Assembly (NCBI GenBank): GCA_028289065.1
Contig: JAQGHA010000010.1
Coordinates: 1-64,000, forward strand
Direction: 5' to 3'
DNA length: 64,000 nt
Source: Candidatus Saccharimonadota bacterium
GTDB lineage: Bacteria; Patescibacteriota; Saccharimonadia; Saccharimonadales; Saccharimonadaceae
The position numbers were made by a program, and so were the translations under genes. Below, piece by piece: positions 51,253 through 53,301 of the stretch (its first letter is position 1; the number at the start of each line of letters is the position of its first letter). The notes beneath the pieces are model-generated. The model was not told the origin of the DNA, made no database searches, and saw nothing but the letters and a program-made list of their open reading frames with translations.

Positions 51253-51337
51253 TGGTGCGCGCGAAAGGACTTGAACCTTCACGCCCGAAAGCACTAGCTC
51301 CTAAGGCTAGCGTGTCTACCAATTCCACCACGCGCGC
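51253..51337 (-). tRNA. tRNA-Leu, anticodon TAG
   Basis: 85 bases including an encoded CCA. Acceptor GCGCGCG pairs with CGCGCGC, D-loop AATTGGTAGA, and the anticodon loop CTTAGGA lies between CTAGC and GCTAG. A long variable arm and the T-loop GTTCAAGTC are those of class II tRNA-Leu. It reads CTA and probably other CTN codons. Its transcript begins with a 5' half-tRNA look-alike 19 bases upstream. Confidence 0.97.
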
Positions 51338-51356
51338 ATACTTAAATTGTCAAAAA

Positions 51357-51398
51357 CGCCAGCGTGTCTACGAATGTTACGTAATCCACCCCGTGCGC
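51357..51398 (-). other. 5' half-tRNA-Leu look-alike in the tRNA-Leu(TAG) leader
   Basis: Read on the minus strand, it begins GCGCACGGGGTGGA (the tRNA has GCGCGCGTGGTGGA), then TTACGTAACATTC in place of the D-loop ATTG, then GTAGACACGCTGGC (the tRNA has GTAGACACGCTAGC). It stops there, with no anticodon or 3' half. The -10 box TATAAT (51409-51414, minus strand) puts its first base at about +4 of the transcript. The same arrangement precedes the other tRNA-Leu gene. Confidence 0.8.
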
Positions 51399-51523
51399 AT
51401 TGCTTTGTATTATATCAGAAAAATCGTACTTTCAAAGCATATGTACATAAATAACCTCTTGTAGATGTTATGCTTGTGCTATTATAGAATCAAGAACGAA
51501 CCAAAACTGATGGGGACGGGGAA

Positions 51524-53128
51524 ATGAATAAAATTGCAGTTTATCTGAACGAACATTTACTTGGGGAAGTGAATAGCTCAAAAGTTCTTCGCAAACGGTT
51601 TTCAACTGATGCGAGCGTATTAACAATCACGCCGGAAATAATTGCATTTCCTAGGGTAACAAACGATGTACGAAAAATCGCACGTTTTTCCTGGCAACTT
51701 GCTGAAAAAGGTCATATCTTACCAATAACTGTTCGCGGTTTTGGTGGCGACACAACTGGTGCGGCTATTGGTAGGGGTGTACTTATTAATACCTCAGCGT
51801 ATTTAAATGAAATTATACAATTAGCACCAAAAGATAGACTGCTACATGTTCAACCTGGTGCGAGCCTTGAGTCAGTTGACGCTGCTTTAAAATGGCAAGG
51901 TTTGGCACTGATTGGTTCAAAGCGTCGCGAAAACCGATCAGCTACAGTTGGAGGTATTATTGCCAACGATAGTTTAGGTGTTAATGGCTCAATGGCAACT
52001 TCACTTGAGAAACTTGAAGTTGTGCTCGCAAACGGCGACCTTATTGAAACCGGTAAAATCAGCAAGCGTGATTTAAGTAAGAAACTGGGCTTACAAACAT
52101 TCGAAGGTGAGATTTACCGAAAACTTGAAGGCCTTATTGAAGATAACGAAGCTTTGGTTAAACAAATAGCTGCCGACGACACACCGGATAATACTGGCTA
52201 TAAAGGTATTGCTTCAGTGAAAGCTAAAGATGGTTCATTTGATTTGACTCCTCTGTTTATTGGTAGCCAAGGTACGCTTGGAATTATTTCTGAAATTGTA
52301 TTAAAAGCCGATTACTTTAGTAACGATAGTACCCATGCTGCCATAGTTGTTGATTCCCTGCAAAAAGGTCGCGACCTATCCGACCGTTTGAGCGAATTAC
52401 AACCAACAGAACTAATGGTGTATGAAGGAGAGTTATTCCGACGTGCCGCCAAACAAGGTGTACAATTTGCCGCATTGGGTGATTTAAGCCAAATTGGTGC
52501 TGTGGTATATATTCGTTTCAACGATTTAAGCGACCGGGCTCAAAGCAACAAGCTGAAAAAACTTCGCAAACTGTTGAAGAAAACTGGCCTTGGCGCGATT
52601 GATTCAACTGAACGAGCCGAGGACGAATTTGAAGTGATTACTGGAATTACCCGTAGCTTGCACTTAGGCGCTGCCGATGAAGCTATTTCAATTCCATTAC
52701 TTGACGGCTCATTCGTGCCAGCTGACCGCCGTGAAGAATTTGAGAAAGCCTTTGAAGAACTTGGCCATAAACACCACCAAGAATTACCAATCGCTTTAAA
52801 TGTTATTAACGGTACCTACGAAGTCTTCCCAATTTTGAAACTTGATTCTGTGGGCGACAAGCAGAAGTTGTTCAAACTATTAATTGATTATGCGGCCTTA
52901 GTCGATAGTTGCCGAGGTGCCTTTACGAGTGATGGCGCCGAAGGCCGTTTAAAGGCCAACGCTGCTTGGTCAACGCTTGACCCAGCTCACGTAGATTTAT
53001 ACGAACAGCTCCGTTCAATCTTCGACCCATTCAAAACGTTGAACCCAGGTGTTAAAGAAAAGAATGACATTCGTACTCTTGTGGCCGCCCTCCGCACCAG
53101 CTACGACCCATCCGACCTGATTGCTTAA
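51524..53128 (+). CDS. FAD-linked oxidase, GlcD/D-lactate dehydrogenase-like
   Basis: 534 residues. The N-terminal FAD-binding PCMH fold is clear: RGFGGDTTGAAIGRGVLINT (about 69-88), VQPGASLESVDAAL and SATVGGIIANDSLGVNGS. A second half with IGSQGTLGIISEIVLKA and a C-terminal FAD-oxidase domain ending GVKEKNDIRTL follows. Family members oxidise 2-hydroxyacids such as lactate or glycolate and pass electrons to the membrane or a partner. No cysteine-rich partner subunit is encoded nearby, so the electron acceptor is unknown. GGGGACGGGGAA before the ATG serves as ribosome site. Confidence 0.88.
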   Translation: MNKIAVYLNEHLLGEVNSSKVLRKRFSTDASVLTITPEIIAFPRVTNDVRKIARFSWQLAEKGHILPITVRGFGGDTTGAAIGRGVLINTSAYLNEIIQLAPKDRLLHVQPGASLESVDAALKWQGLALIGSKRRENRSATVGGIIANDSLGVNGSMATSLEKLEVVLANGDLIETGKISKRDLSKKLGLQTFEGEIYRKLEGLIEDNEALVKQIAADDTPDNTGYKGIASVKAKDGSFDLTPLFIGSQGTLGIISEIVLKADYFSNDSTHAAIVVDSLQKGRDLSDRLSELQPTELMVYEGELFRRAAKQGVQFAALGDLSQIGAVVYIRFNDLSDRAQSNKLKKLRKLLKKTGLGAIDSTERAEDEFEVITGITRSLHLGAADEAISIPLLDGSFVPADRREEFEKAFEELGHKHHQELPIALNVINGTYEVFPILKLDSVGDKQKLFKLLIDYAALVDSCRGAFTSDGAEGRLKANAAWSTLDPAHVDLYEQLRSIFDPFKTLNPGVKEKNDIRTLVAALRTSYDPSDLIA

Positions 53129-53164
53129 CAATCGCTCGTATTCTTGCTATACTTTCCGGAGTAT

Positions 53165-53205
53165 GCGGATATGGCGGATTACGTAAATGCGTAGACGCGT
53201 CGCGT
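53165..53205 (+). other. 5' half-tRNA-Leu look-alike in the tRNA-Leu(CAG) leader
   Basis: Its first 14 bases (GCGGATATGGCGGA) are identical to the downstream tRNA. TTACGTAAATGC then replaces the D-loop ATTG, GTAGACGCG is again identical, and it ends in TCGCGT before an A-rich spacer of nine bases. TATACT (53148-53153) places its first base at about +6. The D-stem bases GCG/CGC copy its own tRNA, whereas the other locus has GTG/CAC in both copy and tRNA. Confidence 0.8.
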
Positions 53206-53214
53206 AAAAAATAT

Positions 53215-53301
53215 GCGGATATGGCGGAATTGGTAGACGCGCTAGCTTCAGGTGCTAGTGTCCGCAAGGACGTGGAGGTTCAAGTCCTCTTATCCGCACC
53301 A
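53215..53301 (+). tRNA. tRNA-Leu, anticodon CAG
   Basis: 87 bases including an encoded CCA. Acceptor GCGGATA pairs with TATCCGC. Anticodon loop TTCAGGT lies between CTAGC and GCTAG, giving CAG, which reads CTG. The variable arm TGTCCGCAAGGACGT and the T-arm GGAGGTTCAAGTCCTC are typical of class II. It is preceded by a half-tRNA copy and followed at once by a terminator. Confidence 0.98.

Follow-up and report, generated by a model that had tools for sequence, protein, structure and literature searches.

We analyzed a 64,000-nt stretch of DNA (the window) from the 0.93-Mb genome of a Candidatus Saccharimonadota bacterium, and found that the predicted transcript of its tRNA-Leu(TAG) gene starts with a unit that copies the 5' half of the same tRNA. 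We give about even chances to the view that such units form a structured and conserved RNA leader at the 5' end of tRNA-Leu transcripts, derived from the tRNA's own 5' half and acting in cis. The half-tRNA element appears to have been kept by evolution in Saccharibacteria and may regulate production of the tRNA.

Half-tRNA units in the window genome

On the minus strand, positions 51398-51357 read GCGCACGGGGTGGATTACGTAACATTCGTAGACACGCTGGCG, 19 nt upstream of tRNA-Leu(TAG) (51253-51337, minus strand). As the preliminary description had claimed, this segment carries the acceptor strand and a D-arm whose loop is replaced, lacks the 3' half, and begins about 4 nt past the predicted transcription start (near 51402, read from the sequence); the extended -10 box that places this start (TGATATAAT, 51409-51417, minus strand) was read in the same way. 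The 5' end of the segment at 51398 was retained, whereas its other end had to be moved, as the unit runs on to about 51353. This leader unit (unit 1, 51353-51398, minus strand) scored E values of 1.7e-7 and 1.1e-6 with covariance models R1 and R2, respectively, and was part of the training sets of both. Its copy of the acceptor 5' strand (51392-51398, minus strand) is GCGCACG, the tRNA having GCGCGCG, and the D-loop insert ATTACGTAACATTC (51372-51385, minus strand) stands in place of AATTG. The tail had been taken for part of an anticodon stem, which was not borne out: it is a separate hairpin, ACGCTGGCGT (hairpin 2, ACG-CTGG-CGT, 51356-51365, minus strand).

A like device had also been claimed for the second tRNA-Leu locus, and it was indeed present there. 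Behind an extended -10 box (TGCTATACT, 53145-53153, plus strand, read from the sequence), a unit at 53165-53208 (plus strand) precedes tRNA-Leu(CAG) (53215-53301, plus strand); its D-loop insert is ATTACGTAAATGC (53178-53190, plus strand) and its hairpin 2 is ACGC-GTC-GCGT (53195-53205, plus strand). This unit scored 1.0e-5 with R1, whose training set included it, and 5.2e-4 with R2, whose training set did not. A third half, GGGCGAGTGGCGGATTACGTAACATGCGTAGACGCGCTAGCGC, was located upstream of tRNA-Leu(CAA) on contig C8, and tRNA-Leu(TAA) and tRNA-Leu(GAG) of this genome had no half. None of these halves is a complete tRNA gene: in the window genome the half lacks the T-arm and the 3' acceptor strand, and ARAGORN calls no tRNA there. 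The TAG and CAG genes lie on opposite strands and flank an FAD-oxidase-like gene (51524-53128) within window positions 51253-53301; many members of the genus likewise have a TAG and a CAG gene about 1.8 kb from each other.

For 37 tRNA genes of the genome, nucleotides 1-13 were matched without gaps to the upstream 120 nt, and the best match was compared with shuffles. Only three of the genes examined, all tRNA-Leu, matched at 11/13 or more: CAG and CAA (both 13/13, shuffle frequency 0) and TAG (11/13, 0.0025). Ten positions matched in the runners-up, Leu(TAA) and Glu(CTC), and nine in the four tRNAs that came next.

Occurrence of the units among relatives

The preliminary description had made its case depend on close relatives, and halves were found upstream of tRNA-Leu in related genomes. 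Units were present in 10/17 members of the genus, the window genome counted: before CAA, TAG, TAA and CAG in G012 (the record of 'Candidatus Saccharibacteria bacterium 47-87' matches this relative); TAA, CAG and TAG in G002; CAG (two 53-nt units), TAG and TAA in G001; TAG (two units) in G007; CAG and CAA (three 51-nt units) in G014; CAA (one unit) in G015; CAG (two identical units next to an assembly gap) in G011; CAG in G006; and TAG in G008. In the other genus members promoters run into the tRNA and no half was seen, and in G015 and G007 the CAG locus has a plain small hairpin in place of the half. Among sister species, one locus carries one, two or three tandem units, or none. When the TAG loci of G001 and G015, which are syntenic, are compared, the -10 box lies about as far from the half as it does from the tRNA where the site is empty.

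Model R1, built on 17 units of the genus and family, detected units in 20/121 family genomes, and R2 gave matches in 37/295 genomes of the order, covering seven families. In a phylum sample of 313 genomes just eight had matches, all within this order. Where matches were read out, a tRNA-Leu gene (TAG, CAG, TAA, CAA or GAG) lay directly downstream, and no readable match below the cut-off was away from tRNA-Leu, with the reservation that models trained on Leu units would let other tRNA classes escape. Two matches were located at contig ends, before any tRNA (L250 and L269), and at L256 the match was followed by a tRNA-Leu(TAG) with a normal 5' part and an abnormal 3' part; this gene (around 1630, genome G050) is a pseudogene or an assembly error. 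Weaker matches (E about 0.05 and above) were mostly tRNA-Leu genes themselves. Several of the genomes compared were metagenome-assembled, judging by record title and number of contigs, and runs of N were observed in or beside half-tRNA arrays (L197 around 1630, L198 around 1620). Because assembly gaps fall at such places, unit numbers in some genomes are perhaps underestimated.

The pattern search proposed earlier (GGATTACGTAA...GTAGAC) returned 51 stretches from 84,980 species, three of which precede tRNA-Leu, in two Saccharibacteria-type genomes that are the genus relatives G012 and G002. It missed most units, because the insert varies.

Other arrangements were observed near tRNA genes. Leaders of another form precede tRNA-Glu in the window genome (C1:124919-124990, L019, minus strand; C8:38089-38160, L024, plus strand) and in several relatives (further loci L284, L286, L287, L305 and L310). 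At their start, the first 8 nt of the own tRNA are repeated within a hairpin (8/8 in 7/9); next come a second hairpin, whose loop is often AAGCAAGC-like, and CTCAC before the tRNA. None had an Rfam match. Genomes from other genera and families contain a whole tRNA-Leu nested in a second, interrupted one (L115, L117, L182, L186 and L187), the outer 5' half lying upstream and the 3' half with CCA downstream; the acceptor stems differ, and leader and trailer are mutually complementary.

Conservation and origin of the unit

From 5' to 3', the unit consists of the acceptor copy, TG, the D-stem 5' strand, the insert, GTAGAC-R-C and hairpin 2, with an AT-rich spacer before the tRNA. The insert is related across genera and isoacceptors: in at least seven families of the order, units bearing it precede tRNA-Leu genes, with all five isoacceptors represented. 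Its full form, CTRCGTGAAACGYAAAT-N-ATC, occurs mostly outside the window's genus and encloses a hairpin, TNCG-TGAAA-CGN'A, in which one pair varies between G-C, G.T, A-T and T-A, the changes among G-C, A-T and T-A being compensatory. Inserts within the genus are mostly shorter (TTACGTAACATTC; TCGAAATATGA), have the right side YATKMGTAGAC in common, and are probably derived from the long form. Outside the genus, many leaders have a length of about 100 nt and carry a third conserved element, GUCC-N(4-7)-GAC-R-N-UAAAC or close variants, which was present in 13 distinct sequences.

Hairpin 2 occupies the position of the anticodon arm. A perfect Watson-Crick stem of at least 3 pairs was found in 59/65 units, a set that includes the 19 units on which the hairpin had been defined, compared with 35% of shuffled tails and 3/63 tRNAs in the same window; three of the six units scored without it were script register errors (L245, L252 and L267). 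Own tails had a moderate advantage over swapped ones (3.49 vs 3.17, sd 0.12). In long leaders the D-stem was the sole structure found by RNAalifold, and whole-unit fold z-scores were modest (+1.3 to -3.0).

The shared insert and its compensatory changes indicate an RNA function, and since the insert, hairpin 2 and the position are all conserved, we favor a structured leader acting in cis. Linkage to one gene class is here combined with conserved structure, although the global consensus fold is weak and the units are readily lost between sister species. Such loss, together with absence from most genomes of the order, indicates that the element is not essential.

The units also track their own tRNA. 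The acceptor copy is identical to it at 7/7 positions in 41/65 units, with an agreement of 6.46 of 7 vs 4.06 for the other Leu acceptors of the set, and D-stem base R24 is the same as in the own tRNA in 58/59 units; because the sequences share ancestry, permutation values given here and below should not be taken as strict probabilities. At the CAG locus of G001, the tRNA-proximal unit carries the tRNA's changed acceptor base and the distal unit does not, and in G172 an acceptor base common to half and tRNA mismatches the tRNA 3' strand. These shared bases support homogenisation by recombination. If half and tRNA recombine by unequal crossing-over, as the direct repeats suggest, the number of units would change, giving series of zero to three, and the acceptor copy would stay equal to that of the tRNA. 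Duplication plus recombination thus accounts for copy number and acceptor matching, but it leaves unexplained an insert common to different isoacceptor loci, each with its own arms. The earlier idea of a relic of repeated duplication survives in part: the tandem series of zero to three units at one locus points to construction by duplication, whereas a pure relic is weakened by the insert common to seven families and the compensatory hairpin changes.

A possible but rather doubtful alternative is that the units are non-functional by-products, in which recurrent slippage or unequal crossing-over copies the tRNA-Leu 5' segment, hairpins arise at template-switch junctions, and the copies persist for want of much harm to the cell. 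The near-identical tandem units (two at CAG in G001 and G011, two at TAG in G007, three at CAA in G014 vs one in G015) are as expected from such a process, as are the empty sites behind the same promoter in sister species and the mismatching base of G172, which homogenisation predicts; acceptor-copy changes also look unconstrained for pairing. However, slippage does not explain the related insert in five isoacceptors and seven families, the compensatory changes or the extra conserved element, and a useless unit would be easily removed by contraction.

Possible roles in tRNA-Leu supply

Competition of the half with the real 5' half, as first suggested, was not supported. As a strand-exchange switch, the acceptor copy would pair with the tRNA 3' acceptor strand and keep the pre-tRNA in an inactive fold, a reading that we consider unlikely. 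Folding without tertiary terms placed this pairing in the lowest-energy fold of 9/17 leader-plus-tRNA sequences, at an energy 0-5 kcal lower than that of the separate folds added together; energetically, the pairing is thus feasible in roughly half of them. The match between acceptor copy and own tRNA is in line with such a switch, and so is the right arm of the tRNA-Glu leaders, which is more complementary to the own tRNA 5' end than to those of others (p 0.005). On the other hand, 22/35 changes in the acceptor copy disrupt its pairing to the tRNA 3' strand, most of them being G>A, which leaves A.C; by our own estimate this proportion is close to the expectation from composition for a G-rich strand with transitions. 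In addition, the Leu tails were not specifically complementary to their own acceptor (p 0.06 with 19 units, 0.52 with 59). Strand competition may therefore occur, but it is not evidently the conserved trait. A long acceptor:tail hairpin, predicted by single-sequence folding, was rejected as the conserved fold in view of the unspecific tails; this hairpin was not consistently weaker when changes in the half were reverted to tRNA letters.

It also seems quite improbable that the leader, freed by RNase P, acts in trans on other RNAs or proteins. A conserved core with variable arms and the precedent of tRNA spacer RNAs would suit this role, and a location before the RNase P site would guarantee release, but among readable matches the unit was always linked to tRNA-Leu and never free-standing. 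A tiny mobile element that entered the D-loop of tRNA-Leu and duplicated nucleotides 1-13 as its target site is highly improbable: the half starts where the tRNA starts in empty sites and the distribution is patchy, but the segment behind the insert tracks the own tRNA too (R24, as above), no terminal repeats were seen, and copies elsewhere were absent among model matches and in viral contigs, apart from one chance match in the latter. A virus origin was rejected, as the three matching contigs represent one phage-like sequence without a tRNA.

The cis-acting leader would act, as RNA, on tRNA-Leu supply. It might confront the processing machinery with a 5' domain that resembles a tRNA without functioning as one, after which RNase P would cut at the real 5' end and free a leader RNA of about 60-105 nt; gating of pre-tRNA maturation is the most likely, but unproven, role. 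More tentatively, and with well under even confidence, tRNA-Leu and, in another form, tRNA-Glu could share a regulatory class of pre-tRNA leaders in Saccharibacteria, in which a mimic of the 5' end gates maturation and supply control is encoded by the tRNA itself.

No Rfam 15 family matched the leader at the gathering threshold, tRNA being the only match in the window and related loci, and permissive Rfam searches gave no convincing leader match. A group I intron in tRNA-Leu was rejected, since there was no Rfam group I match and the tRNA is complete and uninterrupted. T-box riboswitches precede mRNAs and bind tRNA via the specifier codon and UGGN. They resemble the half-tRNA leader as structured 5' leaders tied to the tRNA of one amino acid, whereas the latter sits before the tRNA itself and did not match the Rfam T-box model. 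YrlA / Y RNA tRNA mimics and mitochondrial t-elements, which have roles in RNA processing, fold in part like a tRNA; so does the half-tRNA leader, but these RNAs are not copies of an adjacent tRNA, are not tandem and belong to other lineages. Tandem tRNA pseudogene duplications are, like our units, direct repeats of tRNA sequence in variable number; the half-tRNA units differ in their related D-loop insert and in compensatory hairpins across families. The 3'ETS-leuZ sponge RNA of E. coli is reported as a tRNA external transcribed spacer (for example, PMC6191717 and PMC5222698). Like the half-tRNA leader, it is a non-coding spacer of a tRNA-Leu transcript, and it has a role of its own. The half-tRNA element lies on the 5' side and consists of tandem units derived from the 5' half of the tRNA itself. 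In contrast, 3'ETS-leuZ lies on the 3' side, is not a tRNA copy and acts on sRNAs. A search of the open-access literature returned no account of half-tRNA leaders.

Bacterial tRNA leaders are usually regarded as short discarded pieces. Conserved copies of a tRNA's 5' half, amplified in tandem where its transcript begins, would represent a novel type of RNA element, and would provide RNase P and folding studies with a natural pre-tRNA that has competing 5' halves. Moreover, tRNA supply in the ultrasmall, host-dependent Saccharibacteria would become directly testable.
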